Virus record (IMG/VR): IMGVR_UViG_3300036785_000488 | Span: 1-64,000 of that record | DNA from: a virus | Length of the DNA: 64,000 nucleotides | Reading direction: 5' to 3' (one strand) | Part shown: piece by piece, positions 12,455 to 33,313 of the stretch | Position numbering within the stretch: position 1 is the stretch's first letter | How the letters are laid out: the number at the start of each line of letters is the position of its first letter | Notes under the pieces: generated by a model | Databases searched by the model: none | What the model saw: the letters and a program-made list of their open reading frames with translations, nothing else | Told to the model about the DNA's origin: nothing | Translations under genes and position numbers: made by a program

Positions 12455-13954
12455 TCATCCGGCCTCCTCCTGCCCCTCCCAGCGGGGCGTCGGGAACTTG
12501 GCCCGGAGCTGAGCCATGAGGAGGGCCTTGATGTCGTCCTCCTCGTTCTGGGCGATGCTGCCGTCGGCGGCTGCCCTGAACGTCTCCCACTTCTCAGCGA
12601 TGAGGCGGGCGAGCCAGGTGTCGACGGTGTCCTGGTTGTCCTCGACCACGAGGGTGTGGGCGAAGACGACGTCGGCCTCCTGGCCGATCCGGTTGATCCG
12701 GTCCTCGGCCTGGCTGACCGCACCGGGGTGCCAGGGCTGCTCCACGAAGAGGCAGTCGGTGACGTTGTGACCGTTGCCGACGAAGGTGAAGCCCTCGGCG
12801 TGGGCCTTGAGGGCACACACGAGCACCTCGGTGTCGCCCTCGTTGAAGGTGTCGACCTGAGCCTGCATCTCGGGGGTACCGGTCTTGAAGTCACGCAGGG
12901 CGACCGTGCGGATCTTGGCGGCGTTGAGGGCCTTGGTGATCTCACGCTGCACGTGCTCGTGCATGGCCCACACCACGAGCTTCTTGGAGGGGTTCTCCTC
13001 CCGGTACGTCTTGACCCACTCGACGGCGGCGTCGACCTTGGCGCGCCCGACCTCCTGGCGCAGGGCTGTCATCAGCTCCAGGTGGTAGCTCTGCTCGGTC
13101 TTGGCGACGAAGGTGCGCTCGATCTCGTGGTACCGGTCGAGGCCACCGTTGAGGGACAGCGGCGTCTCGATCCGGTGGGTCTCCTCCATGTCGAGCACCT
13201 CGGAGCGCAGGCGGCGCACGTAGCACGTACCGCGCAGACGCACGTTGAGCAGGTCGAGGTTGGACGCACCGTCCCACTTGGTGCCCCAGGCGTTCGTCTC
13301 ACCGCGGCAGAAGCGGTTCTTGAAGGCGAACTCCCAGTCACGGGGCGTCGGGTTGGCCTTGCCGGTCGGGCGCGGGGCGACCTCCTCCAGGCGACCGATC
13401 ATCATGAGCTGGGTGACCAGTTCGACGGGACGGTTGAGCAGCGGCGTGCCACTGAGGAGGAGCACGGTGCCCTTGCGCGAGCGCACGTCCTCGGAGATCT
13501 TGAGAGCGGCGACGGTGCGAAGCACGGGCGACTTGGCGGTGCCCAGGGCCTTCACGTAGTGGCTCTCATCCACGATCATGGCGTCGAAGCCCTCGCCCAC
13601 CAGGCCGTCGGCCCAGGAGGTGAGGAGGTCGAACTGGATCACGCTGACCTGGGCGTCGGTCTCGTAGGGCACCTTGCCGCCCAGCACCTGGACACTCCAC
13701 TCGGGGGCGCAGCGGTTGATCTCACGCACCCAGTTGGCCTTGAGGCTGGCCTTGCACACGACGAGGATCTTCTGGGCGTCGCGCACCTTGGCGGTCACGA
13801 GAGCCTGGCGGGTCTTGCCCAGGCCCTGCTCGTCAGCGATCAGCGTGCCCTTGCCGTCGGCGGTCTGGACGAGCGCGTAGGCGACACCAGCGTGCTGGTA
13901 GTCGAAGAGCTGCTCACCCTCGGGGAGGTAGCTGTTGAAGTCGATGGTAGCCAT
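12455..13954 (-). CDS. SNF2-family DEAD/DEAH helicase
   Basis: 499 aa from ATG 13954 (leaderless position). Superfamily 2 motifs are all visible: FDYQ (Q-like, about 17-20), Walker A DEQGLGKTRQ (41-50, K47), DESH box (129-132), LLLSGTPLLN (III, about 165-174), LVVWAMHEHV region, and VSQAEDRINRIGQ (VI, 413-425). SNF2 ATPases translocate on dsDNA; phage members remodel or anneal forked DNA or aid replication. The gene two positions upstream in the same orientation carries two HARP-like repeats, which in SMARCAL1 are fused to such an ATPase. Confidence 0.93.
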   Translation of the reverse strand: MATIDFNSYLPEGEQLFDYQHAGVAYALVQTADGKGTLIADEQGLGKTRQALVTAKVRDAQKILVVCKASLKANWVREINRCAPEWSVQVLGGKVPYETDAQVSVIQFDLLTSWADGLVGEGFDAMIVDESHYVKALGTAKSPVLRTVAALKISEDVRSRKGTVLLLSGTPLLNRPVELVTQLMMIGRLEEVAPRPTGKANPTPRDWEFAFKNRFCRGETNAWGTKWDGASNLDLLNVRLRGTCYVRRLRSEVLDMEETHRIETPLSLNGGLDRYHEIERTFVAKTEQSYHLELMTALRQEVGRAKVDAAVEWVKTYREENPSKKLVVWAMHEHVQREITKALNAAKIRTVALRDFKTGTPEMQAQVDTFNEGDTEVLVCALKAHAEGFTFVGNGHNVTDCLFVEQPWHPGAVSQAEDRINRIGQEADVVFAHTLVVEDNQDTVDTWLARLIAEKWETFRAAADGSIAQNEEDDIKALLMAQLRAKFPTPRWEGQEEAG

Positions 13955-13994
13955 GGGTCCATTGTACCGTGTCGGGTGTGACAACACACGTCAG
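13955..13994 (-). promoter_or_regulatory. CCTGAC-type promoter for the helicase
   Basis: Leftward: a T-rich stretch TATTTCTCCTCG, CCTGACG (CTGACG 13994-13989), 22 bp, TACAAT (13966-13961), GGACCC, then ATGGCTAC at 13954. The hexamer at normal -35 spacing (GTGTGT) is not sigma-A-like, whereas the CTGAC just upstream of it is conserved across the family. The small palindrome TAAACCAGACGGTTTA (14013-14028) lies just upstream. Confidence 0.85.
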
Positions 13995-15774: not shown

Positions 15775-16082
15775 GACCGACGCCGTGGTCCGGTGCGCGT
15801 CGTCTGGAACTCACTCACCCAGTGCTCCTGGGCGAGCTTGAACCAGTGGGCGTCCTGCTCGGGCGTGAGCACGGCCAAGTGCCAACCGGCACCCTTGATG
15901 CCCTTGCCGTCCTTGCGGACCTTGTTGCCCTCGGCGTGGACGGCATGTGCCTCGTCAAGGGTGAGGTCGACCTTGATCCTCTTCACCTCGATGAGGTCAC
16001 CGTTCGGCCACGGGTCCTGGGCGCGGAAACGCTCGTCGGCCTCCAGGTCGAATGTGATGAAGAGTTGAGTGTCGACGTTCAT
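15771..16082 (-). CDS. Hypothetical protein
   Basis: 103 aa from ATG 16082 (ATGA overlap with the upstream gene). It has a beta-hairpin start (MNVDTQLFITFDLEADERF), a charged middle (VKRIKVDLTLDEAHAVHAEG), and ends with LTPEQDAHWFKLAQEHWVSEF and an Arg-rich tail. No family recognised. Mid-operon between two small coupled genes. Confidence 0.75.
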   Translation of the reverse strand: MNVDTQLFITFDLEADERFRAQDPWPNGDLIEVKRIKVDLTLDEAHAVHAEGNKVRKDGKGIKGAGWHLAVLTPEQDAHWFKLAQEHWVSEFQTTRTGPRRRS

Positions 16083-16381
16083 GACTCCCCCCTGGCAACG
16101 CGGTTCAGCTCGTCGGTCGGGATGCGGACCTTGACGATGAGGTTGGTGGTCTCCTTGCGACCGTTGAAGTAGAAGGTGACCGTGCGCGCAGCCTGGTCGA
16201 TGATGTGGTCGGTGTCACGGCGGAACTCCCTCTCCAGGGTGGCGAGGTCGTCGGAGCGACGCACGGTGAAGACAGCGTCACTGCCATCGGCGGCGTCGCG
16301 CACCAGGATGAAGCGGCGGCGGCTCGACACGCGGATCTTCTCTCCGAGAGGCAGCGTGTAGGTGGTTGGGTTCGGGTACAT
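16079..16381 (-). CDS. Hypothetical protein downstream of the structured leader
   Basis: 100 aa from ATG 16381, with AAAGGA 13 nt upstream. Basic, beta-rich N-terminus (GEKIRVSSRRRFILVRDAADG), then LEREFRRDTDHIIDQAA and beta strands (TVTFYFNGRKETTNLIVKVRI). It is the first gene after a 400-nt highly structured leader whose promoter is at 16788-16821, so expression may depend on that RNA. No family recognised. Confidence 0.75.
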   Translation of the reverse strand: MYPNPTTYTLPLGEKIRVSSRRRFILVRDAADGSDAVFTVRRSDDLATLEREFRRDTDHIIDQAARTVTFYFNGRKETTNLIVKVRIPTDELNRVARGES

Positions 16382-16781
16382 GAGTGTGGTCTCTGTTCCT
16401 TTCTGCCAGGCCCGACCATCGGGCTGGCATGGCGCTCTGCTCCGGTCATGATCCGGTGCCGCCTACACGAGGCAGAGCGTGCTGCTCATGAGCTGAATGA
16501 GAGAGTCTGGGCCAGCCCTATCGTCCCCTTGCCATCCCCCATCGATGCACCTCCGGGTTACTCTCCAGGTATTTTCGGGCTGTTCTCCAAGTTCGCTCCC
16601 CTTACCTTTCGCCCTCCACACACGTTCATTCAGGGATCCTCCACCGTTCTCAGGTGGCTGGTGGTCGTTAGCCGTCAGCGTGGTTTCATCGGGTTACTTG
16701 CGAGGGCACCTCCTCGGTCCCAGGCTCTGTCATTCAGCTCATGTCATGTCTTTGAGATGTGGTCTCCTCTCACTCGGTGGT
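16382..16781 (-). ncRNA. Candidate structured ncRNA / regulatory leader
   Basis: A promoter at 16788-16821 points into 400 nt with no convincing ORF. On the leftward transcript, 16742-16730 pairs perfectly over 13 bp with 16500-16488, and continues as AGAG/CTCT and CTGGG/CCCAG separated by single mismatches, giving 22 pairs closing a 255-nt domain. Inside are CAGCCC/GGGCTG (16582-16577 with 16518-16513), a hairpin CCACC/GGTGG (16657-16653 with 16645-16641), CGAGG/CCTCG (16716-16712 with 16705-16701) and purine-rich loops such as GGCGAAAGG. Downstream, CGCTCTGC pairs with GCAGAGCG, and a 10-bp hairpin (16405-16428) sits just ahead of the next gene's ribosome site. I do not recognise the RNA class. 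Confidence 0.7.
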
Positions 16782-16787
16782 GACACC

Positions 16788-16821
16788 ATGGTACCAGGTT
16801 CACACAGTGAATCGTACGCAG
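16788..16821 (-). promoter_or_regulatory. CCTGAC-type promoter driving the structured RNA
   Basis: Leftward: CTGCGT (16821-16816, variant of CTGACN), 22 bp containing TGTGTGAA, TACCAT (16793-16788). Unlike the other copies, no start codon follows at 6-7 nt; instead the structured RNA begins about 16781. Confidence 0.75.
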
Positions 16822-16850
16822 GTGTGCGAGTTTTTTGTTGCAGTTTGGTG

Positions 16851-17738
16851 TCAGCCGATCACCTCCTTGACCAGTGCCCTGGCCTTGGCGACGTTGGCCT
16901 TGGTCTCCACGATGGCCTGGAGGATCTGCTCCTGGCTGAGCCGGAAGGGGTTGTGCTTGGGGATCTTGGAGTCCTTGATGGCCTTCTTGATGGCCCTCTC
17001 GGCCTGAGCAGCCAGCCCGTCACCCAGACCAGCAGCCTGGAGAGCAGGGACGAGCTTGCGGATATGGGCCTCCTCGTCACCCCCGTAGTAGACGATGTTG
17101 CTGAGAAGGTGTGACAGTTCGTTGCGAGCGGCGACCTTGGTACGGAGCACGTTGCCGTCGATCCGCAGCGGCGAGCCGTCGACATCGGTGATGGCCTTCT
17201 CGGCCTTCTCGGCATCCTTGGCAGCCTTCTCGGCGGCACGAGCCGCCTGGGCCTCACGGTCGATGCGTGCGGGCCGGTTGTAGAGCGGGTTGGTCGGGGC
17301 GTCTGGGAAGCACACCGTGCAGGCGCGCTCTCCCCACTCCTCGACCATGGCGTCCTCGTTGCAGTCGGCCAGCTCCACGAGCCACCCGTACACAGTGGTG
17401 GGGAAGCAGGTGCTGCAGTTCATGCCACGGTGGACGTGCCCGTTGTCGTTGCGAACGAGGAAGTAGCGGTTCCACGGGCGGCGGTTGTACTCGACCTGGT
17501 ACGGCACCGAGGCAGCGATCAGCTCGGCGCGCTCGGCCTGGAGGGCCTTGATGTCCTCACGAGCCTTGAGCACCTCGTTGCGGTGGTATTCGGTGTCCCA
17601 CTTGACGAGCCTCTTCTCGGAGTACTCCAGGTGGTTGACCTCCATCATGATGTGCTGCTCAACACGGGCCTGGGCCTCGTAGTTGTCGGAGAGCACCGTG
17701 TCGATCTCGACCGGCGTCATGTCTGCTGTGTTCGTCAT
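16851..17738 (-). CDS. Actinophage conserved zinc-binding protein (FLVRNDNGHVHRG type)
   Basis: 295 aa from ATG 17738 (leaderless position). Residues about 25-70 are coiled coil. FLVRNDNGHVHRGMNCSTCF, about 90-110, then TTVYGWLVEL and GERACTVCFPDAP give His/Cys pairs for zinc. I know this block as conserved in many actinophage and actinobacterial proteins of unknown function. An Ala/Lys-rich linker and a helical C-terminus follow. It is divergently placed from the PP-loop gene at 17887. Confidence 0.85.
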   Translation of the reverse strand: MTNTADMTPVEIDTVLSDNYEAQARVEQHIMMEVNHLEYSEKRLVKWDTEYHRNEVLKAREDIKALQAERAELIAASVPYQVEYNRRPWNRYFLVRNDNGHVHRGMNCSTCFPTTVYGWLVELADCNEDAMVEEWGERACTVCFPDAPTNPLYNRPARIDREAQAARAAEKAAKDAEKAEKAITDVDGSPLRIDGNVLRTKVAARNELSHLLSNIVYYGGDEEAHIRKLVPALQAAGLGDGLAAQAERAIKKAIKDSKIPKHNPFRLSQEQILQAIVETKANVAKARALVKEVIG

Positions 17739-28240: not shown

Positions 28241-31090
28241 TCAACCTCCTGTGGCTTTGAAGTGTGCGGCGAGTTCGTTGATCGACAGCGCACGGTTGTA
28301 GATAGCGACGTGCGCCAGGTCTCCGGTCATCCACTGCGTCGTGCGCGCGCCGCGGCCCATGCGCCAGTACAAGGCTGCTTGAGCTTGACGCGCTGTTAGC
28401 TGAGTAGTGGTTCTCAGTGCACCATCTCGGTAGATGTAGAGATTCGTACCGTCAAAGATGAAGGCACCGTGGTGCCAGTTACCGTCAGCGGTGCTTGCAA
28501 CATCTTGAGGAGCGTTCTGCGGCCCGCCCCAACAGATTCCGTTCAACAAGCCAGTGGTCGGCCATGAACTCAGCGATGCGTTATACGTCCCCGTTGGAGT
28601 ACCGGTGGTCGAACTGTTCAACTCCACCATAACGCCGCCTGTCGAAGTCGATTGAATGCGGTACCACAACTCGATGGTGAACGGCGTGCCGTAGACGACT
28701 GTCTCTGCGACTGTCTCGACCAGTGAACCACCCGTACCGTCGAAGTGCGCCGATCCAGGACTAGCTCCCCAGGGATCAGCACCACCGAAGATGACGACGC
28801 CGTACAACTGAGCCGTCTTGCTTGCACCCGAGGAGTCAGCAGCAGTGGTCGAGTGGAGTGCTTCGTTGAGCTTCCAGTACGCAGCAGGGGCTGACTGTAG
28901 GACGGCGGCACTGTACGAAGTGTTGAGGTTCGTCACCTGCATGCCCGCCTTGACGTTCATGGCAATCGAGTTCGTCGGGACCCCTCTGCCGGTGTTGTAG
29001 TGCTGTGCGATCTCAGTCGGAGTCAGAGGGCGGTTGTAGACAGCCATGTGCGACAGACTGCCGAGAAGTGACCCCCACTGACGGTTTGAGTACCCGAGTC
29101 GCCAGTAGCCCATAGGCATCGTGAACGGTTGCTGACCGGCGAGAGCCTGCTGCGCCCGCAGTGATCCGTTCCGATAGATCTGTCCTGTTGTCGTCGCAGC
29201 GTTGTACACGTACACCAGGTGGTACCACTGATTGTCCGAGGAGACTTCACCCGCCCCAGCGATCCCTGAACCGGTGGAACCGAAGATGTATCCGTAGGAT
29301 CCTCCCGACCACAGACCAGTCGTGGCTGAACGTACAGCGTTATTGCTCGGGTTGTTGGCAGGGCTGGCGACGGTCGGACCTTCGGGGAGGAAGTCCATGA
29401 ACCCGGTACCGATTGTGTTGCTCCTGAACCAACACTCGATGCTGAACGAGTTGGGTATCTGTTCCTGGTAGTTCCTGACGATCTGGTTCGACGCAGCGGC
29501 ACCTGTCCCAGTCACAGCGTCCGTTGTGCTCCAAGGATCGGTTGCGCCAATGGTGAGCGTTGAACCGATGACCGTTGTGCCTCCAGGCGGCTGTGTATTG
29601 AGCCGCCAGTACAGATCGGGGTTCGATGACCGCACGGCGCTGGCGTAGAGCGCAGCGGTTGGGAGTGGGGGAGCAGCGGTGTAGTGGCTGATGATCTCGG
29701 CATACGGGAGCGCCCGACCGTACGCCGCCACGAAGCACAGGTTCCCCATGAACGGGTTCGCCGCTCCCTGACTCACTCCCCGACCGACATGCCAGCAGCC
29801 CTGGAATGGGACAGGCACCGTGGCGTTCGTTGCCGAGGCAAGTACACCGTCGACATAGAACGACCACGTCTGAATACCGTCGTACGTGGCAGCAATGTGA
29901 TGCCAGCCACCGTCACCCGCTGTGGCGGGGCCGATCTGAGGGCCGAGAACGGAAGCACCGCCACCACCTGTTCCAGACGGGGGATTAACGCGGGCGAACG
30001 TGTTCACTCCTACACCCGGTCCCTGGAGAAGGATCGACGGTCCATAACTGGGATTGCTGGTTGGGAATCCGGTGGTGTCCACGTTGAACTCCATCGGTAC
30101 GGATGAGATTGACCCAGTAGTCGCCGGGTTGGTCTGCATCCAGAACTCCATGGTGTATGCGCCACCACGGGGCCAGGGCTGGGTCGGATTCTGGAGAAGG
30201 TGACTGATGTTGGGGGCGGCACCTGTCCCGTTGAAGTACGCCGCACGGTGACCGCCCCACGGGTCCAGGGCAGTACCGAAGGCCACGGTGCCGAACACCT
30301 TGGCGTCAGCCGGTGCGACGTTCAGGGGCCAGAACAACTGGTTCGGGTTCGACGCTTGCACCGCCGCCTGGTAGACCGACCAACCGTCGACCATTGCCAC
30401 AGACAGGCTGGACGTGGCAGCCATGTTGGGACCGTTGGACCACCAGTCGTCCGGTTCGGGATCCAGGATCGACTCACTGACGAGATCGACCTCGGGGAAC
30501 CAGTCGGCCTGGGAGGTCACCACGGTCTCACCGGTCATGATGACTGTGGCCTGCACCAGGTCGTCGGCGGTGACACTCATGTCACCCTCTCCAACGAGAG
30601 TGACGCTCGGCGTGGTGGTGATCGGGATCGTGTCGGGCGTGAGCGTCGTGGTGGCCTGCATGCCGACCTGGACGGCCACATCAGGTGTGAGCGGCGGCGG
30701 GGGCAGGGGCGAAGGCGCGGGGGTGTACACCTCCCCGGTGAACTCAAAGATCCAAGCAGTGTCCCAGGCGTCGGCTGGCCCAGCGACGAGCGGACTCTGG
30801 CCGACCAGTGCGTAAACCGCTTGGAGGCCCTGAGACAGCACAGTATCTGCCGGGGCGTTGGGATCGAAGTTCTGCCGAGACGGCACGTTGAAGAGCACCT
30901 CGGTGCCAGGAACCAGCGGCACCATCTCGACCACCTGACGCTCACCGTCGAGCGGGCCGTCCTGGAGGAGCATCATCACCGGAGTGCCGACCGGGCCGAC
31001 ATGGGCGGCGGCGAAGAGCGTCGAGCTGGCAGCGAGGTTGACCGACACGACATTGAGAGCCGAGGTCGCAGCCAACGTGACCGTGGTCAT
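28241..31090 (-). CDS. Large LamG/concanavalin-like repeat protein (virion appendage)
   Basis: 949 aa from ATG 31090. After about 245 Thr/Ala-rich residues (TLAATSALNVVSVNLAAS...), three LamG-type jelly-roll domains follow at roughly 248-470, 478-700 and 730-949. Each starts xxxWxLN (QLFWPLN, DLYWRLN, AAYWKLN), carries DPWG/DPWS, FxxxFWMQTN/ECWFRSN/ELWYRIQ, WHH or WYHLVYVY, and ends GxLxxxAxYxRxLxxxEI. LamG domains bind carbohydrate; here the likely target is the host envelope. A -10-like TACACT lies 7 nt before the ATG. Confidence 0.9.
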   Translation of the reverse strand: MTTVTLAATSALNVVSVNLAASSTLFAAAHVGPVGTPVMMLLQDGPLDGERQVVEMVPLVPGTEVLFNVPSRQNFDPNAPADTVLSQGLQAVYALVGQSPLVAGPADAWDTAWIFEFTGEVYTPAPSPLPPPPLTPDVAVQVGMQATTTLTPDTIPITTTPSVTLVGEGDMSVTADDLVQATVIMTGETVVTSQADWFPEVDLVSESILDPEPDDWWSNGPNMAATSSLSVAMVDGWSVYQAAVQASNPNQLFWPLNVAPADAKVFGTVAFGTALDPWGGHRAAYFNGTGAAPNISHLLQNPTQPWPRGGAYTMEFWMQTNPATTGSISSVPMEFNVDTTGFPTSNPSYGPSILLQGPGVGVNTFARVNPPSGTGGGGASVLGPQIGPATAGDGGWHHIAATYDGIQTWSFYVDGVLASATNATVPVPFQGCWHVGRGVSQGAANPFMGNLCFVAAYGRALPYAEIISHYTAAPPLPTAALYASAVRSSNPDLYWRLNTQPPGGTTVIGSTLTIGATDPWSTTDAVTGTGAAASNQIVRNYQEQIPNSFSIECWFRSNTIGTGFMDFLPEGPTVASPANNPSNNAVRSATTGLWSGGSYGYIFGSTGSGIAGAGEVSSDNQWYHLVYVYNAATTTGQIYRNGSLRAQQALAGQQPFTMPMGYWRLGYSNRQWGSLLGSLSHMAVYNRPLTPTEIAQHYNTGRGVPTNSIAMNVKAGMQVTNLNTSYSAAVLQSAPAAYWKLNEALHSTTAADSSGASKTAQLYGVVIFGGADPWGASPGSAHFDGTGGSLVETVAETVVYGTPFTIELWYRIQSTSTGGVMVELNSSTTGTPTGTYNASLSSWPTTGLLNGICWGGPQNAPQDVASTADGNWHHGAFIFDGTNLYIYRDGALRTTTQLTARQAQAALYWRMGRGARTTQWMTGDLAHVAIYNRALSINELAAHFKATGG

Positions 31091-31840: not shown

Positions 31841-33313
31841 TCAGTCCATGGTCCGACGAACCGCATCCTCGGCACGGTTGGGGTCCACTTTTCGGAGGCC
31901 CTCGGCCCGCTCGGCCCCGAAGAGCCGCGCCAGCACGCCCGCCTGGGTGCGTCCCTCGACGGTCACCTTCAAGAAGTCTCGGTTGTCCTGGATCTCCTTG
32001 ACGCTCTGCGTCATCCGCATGAATCGGTCCAATTCGGACGACAGGTTGGCGTCGGGGTAGCCGCCCTGGAGCTGCTCGGAGAAGAAGCCGAAGGCGACCC
32101 GCTGGCCCTGCATCTCCAAGAGGCTGTGCAGAATCGACATCAGTTGATCACGATTCCGTATCTGAATCGGGATCGAGTACTTGCACGACGAGCCAAGTTC
32201 AAAGAGAGGACACACTGCGGCGAGCGAGCACGAGTCGCATTGACGCAGCCCAGCTCCATTCATGACGGCGACGTCGTTGGTGACCTCGACAGTGCCCGTC
32301 CCGTTCGGATTCTCCATGACGGTGGTGTGCGGGCGGAAATCGAACACCGGCAGAGGCCGGATGACGTCGGGCAGGTGCGACCCGTTTGAAGCGGGTTCAG
32401 GAGCTAAGTGATCAACTGCCTGTTCGGGCAGAGGCGCAGTTTCCGGGGGAGTCGGATGTCCATTTGCAGTTGATCCATTACGTCGTTTGAGCAGCTTGGC
32501 GCGTTGCGGCCCCTCCATGGACTGCTCCATTTGCCGCCAGGCCCATACCGTGTAGCGGGCGACCTCGTCGGAGTCGTCGTTGACAATTTTGTCAGCGTCG
32601 AACCCGGCGGCAGTGAAGTGGCTGCGGTGCCGACGGCGGATCTTCTCCTTGTCGTCAGCCGGATACCGGCGCAGCCGGTTCTCATCCCAGATCATGGTTT
32701 CTCCAAAGCGCGTAGGAGAAATCCACGAGGACGAGACGAGCGTCGAGTACAGCCCTCCTGGGGCGTCGTAAGGGTGCGAGAACGACAGCCCATGCAGGTT
32801 GATCTTGGTCCGACGCACGAGGGACGAGAGCACGTTCTGGGTCCGGTCCTCAACCGGCGGGACGCCGAGATTGGGGTGCTTCTCGACCATGGTTCGGAGA
32901 AGAGGCGCGCCCCAGTCCTCGTGCCATACCGGGACGAACTTGTCGTCGGCCACACCCGCCCAGACCTCACGCTGGCGCAGCACCCAGTCCAGACCCAGGC
33001 TCCCGGCGTCGTATTCGGTGAAGAAGGCGATCCTCTCCAGGTTGTCCTGGACGAAGCCCAGGTAGGCCGAGAGGAACTCCTCGTGCTCGGTCTGGCTCCA
33101 GTTCTTGCGCTCGGTCGCAGAGCTGCCCGACATGACGAAGATCTTCTGCTCATCGGGGAAGACGTCAGCTAGTAACCAAGGTTGTTTAGTGATTCGTGGC
33201 TGGAGGTGGAGGTAGTTGACGGCGACGTGCGGCACGCCCTCGGCGGCGAGGAGCTTGCGCCAAGCCGGGGTCTCGGCCCCGGCGAAGTACAACTCAAGAT
33301 GACGCAGGCTCAT
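31841..33313 (-). CDS. Conserved actinophage protein, TIM-barrel-like N-domain and Cys-cluster C-domain
   Basis: 490 aa from ATG 33313 (ATGA overlap). The first 260 residues (LRHLELYFAGAE, KIFVMSGSSA, FTEYDAGSLG, FVPVWHEDWG, SSWISPTRFGETMIWD) have the spacing of the TGT/DpdA-like barrels that phages use for 7-deazaguanine insertion, although the family is not certain. A Pro-rich linker is followed by CDSCSLAAVCPLFELGSSC, a four-Cys cluster, and a helical end (MQGQRVAFGFFSEQLQGG). No other deazapurine genes are visible here. Its place in the virion-associated block is unexplained. Confidence 0.75.
   Translation of the reverse strand: MSLRHLELYFAGAETPAWRKLLAAEGVPHVAVNYLHLQPRITKQPWLLADVFPDEQKIFVMSGSSATERKNWSQTEHEEFLSAYLGFVQDNLERIAFFTEYDAGSLGLDWVLRQREVWAGVADDKFVPVWHEDWGAPLLRTMVEKHPNLGVPPVEDRTQNVLSSLVRRTKINLHGLSFSHPYDAPGGLYSTLVSSSWISPTRFGETMIWDENRLRRYPADDKEKIRRRHRSHFTAAGFDADKIVNDDSDEVARYTVWAWRQMEQSMEGPQRAKLLKRRNGSTANGHPTPPETAPLPEQAVDHLAPEPASNGSHLPDVIRPLPVFDFRPHTTVMENPNGTGTVEVTNDVAVMNGAGLRQCDSCSLAAVCPLFELGSSCKYSIPIQIRNRDQLMSILHSLLEMQGQRVAFGFFSEQLQGGYPDANLSSELDRFMRMTQSVKEIQDNRDFLKVTVEGRTQAGVLARLFGAERAEGLRKVDPNRAEDAVRRTMD

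Follow-up and report, generated by a model that had tools for sequence, protein, structure and literature searches.

A 64,000-nucleotide window (positions 1 to 64,000 of the 85,071-base IMG/VR virus record IMGVR_UViG_3300036785_000488) was examined. On the minus strand, a gene of unknown function (P0002), a promoter-like element, an intergenic region with predicted helices, and a further gene (P0001) follow one another, and the features of this locus are collected in the table below. Elsewhere on the minus strand, the window encodes a SNF2-type helicase with relatives in Gordonia, Arthrobacter and Caulobacter phages, a protein with three lectin-like stretches, and a relative of phage queuine tRNA-ribosyltransferase that is possibly a DNA-modification (DpdA-type) enzyme.

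Features of the RNA locus and of other regions of the window (window coordinates)
Position	Strand	Feature	Observations
16787..16806	-	Promoter core TGTGTGAACCTGGTACCATG (extended -10 TGnTACCAT)	Predicted start of RNA about 16781
16488..16742	-	Conserved structured RNA, outer closing helix to outer closing helix	Covariance model core 16497-16731; 174.6 bits, E about 1e-41; one copy in the 85-kb record
16730..16742	-	P1 outer, 5' strand	Pairs with 16488-16500, 13 bp; long closing helices of unrelated sequence in homologues
16488..16500	-	P1 outer, 3' strand	
16719..16723	-	P1 inner, 5' strand CTGGG	Pairs with 16507-16511; covarying helix
16507..16511	-	P1 inner, 3' strand CCCAG	
16713..16717	-	P2 5' strand CCGAG	Pairs with CTTGG 16587-16591; 92% paired, all 5 pairs with double changes
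16587..16591	-	P2 3' strand	
16679..16683	-	P3 5' strand CCACG	Pairs within 16616-16624; all 6 pairs with double changes
16661..16677	-	Motif 1, UGACGGCUAACGACCAC	Near-invariant internal-loop strand
16638..16660	-	P3b, variable hairpin	Excised interior 9 to 97 nt in relatives
16625..16638	-	Motif 2, GAUCCCUGAAUGAA	Near-invariant internal-loop strand
16577..16582	-	P5 5' strand CAGCCC	Pairs with GGGCUG 16513-16518
16513..16518	-	P5 3' strand GGGCUG	
16538..16557	-	P6 hairpin CCC-GGA-GGUGCAUC-GAU-GGG	96% paired
16544..16551	-	Self-complementary 8-nt loop GGUGCAUC	Proposed homodimer kissing loop
16442..16456		Hairpin with GGATCATNACC	Loop UCAUGA is also a palindrome
16405..16481		Hairpins	Present in the sequence but not part of the conserved RNA
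16851..17738	-	Upstream gene P0002	phrog_15500/phrog_2433; leaderless start probably 17738
16079..16381	-	Downstream gene P0001	No relative in phages
12455..13987	-	SNF2-type helicase	Pfam PF00176, phrog_62
28241..31090	-	949-aa protein, three Laminin_G_3 stretches	Similar to a virion structural protein family
31841..33313	-	Relative of phage queuine tRNA-ribosyltransferase	phrog_887, E 3e-44

The first-pass annotation had proposed that this region specifies a structured RNA of 400 nt with its own promoter. Four copies of the promoter family TGTGTGAACCTGSTACCATG were detected in the window, all on the minus strand (12177, 15576, 16787 and 17745), with 0 expected by chance. Three of these copies drive apparently leaderless genes with an ATG or GTG start codon 6-7 nt after TACCAT, while the copy at 16787 has no such codon, as the annotation had claimed. 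The 13-bp closing helix and the CTGGG/CCCAG and CAGCCC/GGGCTG helices were likewise present where the annotation had placed them. Folding z-scores were -3.0 for the closed 255 nt and -2.4 for the 400 nt. However, the claim that pairing density was far above that of the surrounding coding sequence was not confirmed, as the raw folding energy (-96.0) was at the 49th percentile of 320 equal-sized pieces of the window (mean, -95.8), and hence structure had to be judged by comparison of homologues. A search of the window with Rfam 15 families detected no match at the curated gathering score, there was no meaningful match in 16200-17000 at E values up to 10, and ARAGORN detected no tRNA or tmRNA in the window.

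In order to identify relatives, a blastn search of phages was performed with the 1.4-kb region at an E value of 1e-5, and nothing was found. A shorter query at a loose E value detected weak collinear pieces in intergenic gaps of Mycobacterium phages, and side-by-side reading of these gaps revealed shared motifs. Blastn hits in Erwinia and Microbacterium lay inside annotated genes and were due to chance. The motif 1 pattern TGACGGYTAACGACCAC was found in 39 stretches of viral contigs, of which 38 also carried the motif 2 sequence GAYCCCTGAAYGAA with 0-1 mismatch, although motif 2 was not used in the search; the remaining stretch was cut off by the contig end. Nine hits in 84,980 bacterial and archaeal genomes carried no motif 2 and scored at most 15.7 bits with the covariance model described below. 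Two further patterns added six members, while relaxed two-motif patterns gave no new members and a pattern search for P0002 in viral contigs found nothing. Overall, relatives were present in about 190 named Mycobacterium phages (Bixzunavirus, Myrnavirus), as detected by blast with other members, and in about 40 IMG/VR contigs; none was found in bacterial genomes or plasmids. All named hosts are M. smegmatis. Sixteen relatives were compared with Rfam, and the only match was a tmRNA elsewhere in one contig (L026).

An alignment of 20 sequences, from which the interior of the variable P3b hairpin had been cut out, was analyzed with RNAalifold, and 43 pairs were found, of which 36 had double changes. 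For 40 named pairs (36 intramolecular and 4 in the palindromic loop described below), 91.9% of cells paired, with 216 double-change cells against 66 after shuffling. Covariation was 0.727, against 0.205 for shuffled alignments and 0.05-0.13 when the structure was slid by 1-3 columns. A covariance model (R1) found all members, with scores of 46-203 bits and E values down to 1e-48, and phages held out of the model had E values of 1e-19 to 1e-22. Alignments made with such a model lean towards the model structure. In the 19 sequences not used in building it, 91.1% of predicted pairs held, against 58.4% after shuffling, with 187 double changes against 52. The elements occur in the following order: the P1 closing helix; P2 (CCxxx/xxxGG); P3, flanking an internal loop made of motifs 1 and 2 and capped by P3b; a purine-rich GGAGGGCGAAA..GAGxGAA region with isolated covarying pairs; P5 (CAGxx/xxCUG); and P6. 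These results indicated that the region is a structured RNA gene whose fold has been conserved, and that the closing stem covaries, a test that the first-pass annotation had proposed. The conserved RNA ends at the closing helix, so the core is about 235-255 nt in the window rather than 400 nt.

The genomic context of the RNA was then compared. All of the 35 whole records examined contained the RNA, which was present as a single copy in 33, the second hits in the other two being split fragments at the same locus. No downstream gene recurred among 40 homologous loci. Relatives of P0002 occurred in only 10 of 35 RNA-bearing records, so this gene is not a strict partner. A tRNA or tmRNA was detected in only 5 of 45 loci, including tmRNA genes 0.8 and 0.4 kb downstream of the RNA in contigs L026 (10221-10616) and L041 (284-609) and a tRNA-Tyr at 77 nt. 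The hairpin with GGATCATNACC that follows the RNA in the window was also observed in Phabba (locus L007, about 2850-2865) but in no other of the 40 loci. In several Myrnavirus RNAs (L007, L008, L013 and L033), an insert between P2 and P5 contains an additional GGGGAGUCAUGACCCC-like hairpin that carries a second palindromic loop (UCAUGA). In many Bixzunavirus records, short hypothetical genes are annotated on top of the RNA (for example, ValleyTerrace gp65; L009, 1013-1276), and these are probably misannotations.

The P6 loop reads GGA-(8 nt)-GAU, and the 8-mer was GUGCGCAC, GUGGCCAC, GGUGCAUC, GUUGCAAC, GCUGCAGC, GUCCGGAC or GGUGCACC. All 32 canonical members had a self-complementary 8-mer when G-U pairs were counted, and 27 did so by Watson-Crick pairs alone, against a mean of 6.2 and a maximum of 15 in 2000 column shuffles. 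The loop of the window copy is self-complementary only with G-U pairs. The two central bases are adjacent and cannot pair within one chain, yet these were GC in 11 and CG in 9 of the 20 training sequences. Two members, L063 and L065, were 96.7% identical over 366 aligned positions but differed in the loop by GUGGCCAC/GUCCGGAC. On a tree made without these columns, the palindrome changed 14 times among 31 members, hardly fewer than the 16.5 changes of random labels, although the alignment was short and the tree is uncertain. As the 8-mer occurs once per RNA, no second identical internal site explains this pattern. Seven divergent members lacked the canonical 14-nt loop; by eye, most carried shorter palindromes near the same place. 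These results indicated that the loop is under selection for self-complementarity and suggested homodimerisation by a kissing loop. The same reasoning has been applied to OLE L9.3 and GOLLD L21a, for which cryo-EM shows the loops paired between chains (PMC12286853).

The actinobacterial rRNA operons examined carry TTGAGAACTCAAYAG-type elements in the 16S leader and the spacer. When these were used as an independent template, 18 of 39 family members matched at 11 or more of 15 positions upstream of the core, against 1.1 expected, and the matches lay 57-82 nt before motif 1. By its position and apparent agreement with the consensus, this TTGAGAACTCAATAG-type element, located just before or within a long closing helix, was interpreted as the rRNA boxA. 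The window copy has no boxA, and the core of the RNA is unrelated to rRNA. In the members with this element, host Nus factors probably keep RNA polymerase on the template, as for pre-rRNA, and the resemblance of the leader-trailer helix to that of pre-rRNA suggests nuclease trimming; antitermination, trimming and a high abundance of the RNA are inferences.

Although there are no expression data, we consider it likely that the locus encodes a stand-alone noncoding RNA of about 225-380 nt, transcribed from its own promoter and folded into a branched structure closed by a long helix, and we propose that it acts as a scaffold that pairs with a second copy of itself through the palindromic loop of P6. 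A less probable alternative is a monomeric RNA that binds a host protein complex (6S-like or Ms1-like RNA polymerase binding, or ribosome binding), with the loop contacting a symmetric protein. The near-invariant unpaired motifs 1 and 2 look like a binding or tertiary module, and highly expressed noncoding RNAs of unknown function occur in actinobacteriophages (PMC10986025). Palindromes could in principle serve a symmetric protein, but a protein site would keep its sequence, while this loop keeps only self-complementarity as the sequence switches, and there was no match to 6S or any other Rfam family.

The other possibility raised in the first-pass annotation, a regulatory leader of the downstream gene, was not supported and appears very unlikely. 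In the window, this gene follows within 110 nt of the closing helix on the same strand, with further hairpins in between, but downstream genes were unrelated across the 40 loci, P0001 has no relative in phages, and in Phabba and Myrna the next gene is 200-300 nt away. A DNA-packaging RNA of the phi29 pRNA type is equally doubtful. Both are phage RNAs with an intermolecular loop contact, inferred in the present case, but phi29 pRNA appears to use two different complementary loops to form a ring, whereas one self-complementary loop favours a two-fold dimer; furthermore, no Rfam match was obtained and no packaging gene recurred beside the RNA. There was also little reason to suspect a self-cleaving or self-splicing ribozyme with motifs 1 and 2 as the catalytic core, as no Rfam ribozyme or intron match was detected and no interrupted gene was seen around the RNA.

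GOLLD and ROOL are also large, highly structured phage or prophage RNAs of unknown function that form homo-oligomers with symmetric kissing loops, one of which shows palindrome switching in GOLLD (PMC12286853). The present RNA is about half to a third of their length (about 225-380 nt against about 660 to over 800) and is not systematically located beside tRNA genes. OLE RNA is a homodimer with a kissing loop that switches between palindromic tetranucleotides. The D29/cluster A and Rhodococcus WC1 RNAs are, similarly, intergenic actinobacteriophage noncoding RNAs of unknown function (PMC10986025), but model R1 found nothing in the whole D29 genome (NC_001900). No description of the present family was found in the open-access literature, although a 2022-23 survey of over ten thousand candidate structured RNAs in viruses and phages (Fremin and colleagues) could contain it unnamed.

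The role of the RNA may be takeover of a host RNA-binding machine (ribosome or RNA polymerase) during infection, but this is a guess. A further, tentative view is that these RNAs form a class that assembles into RNA-only dimers or larger particles, made through an rRNA-style boxA pathway, whose dimerisation loop keeps switching sequence so that the RNA of each phage recognises only itself. The fast switching of the palindrome would fit selection for such self-specific pairing, for example during mixed infections, although this is speculation. Few natural RNAs are known to assemble with themselves, and the large phage ones (GOLLD, ROOL) have no known function; the family described here is small, has been found so far only in phages, and is carried by about 190 sequenced phages of M. 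smegmatis, including phages such as I3.
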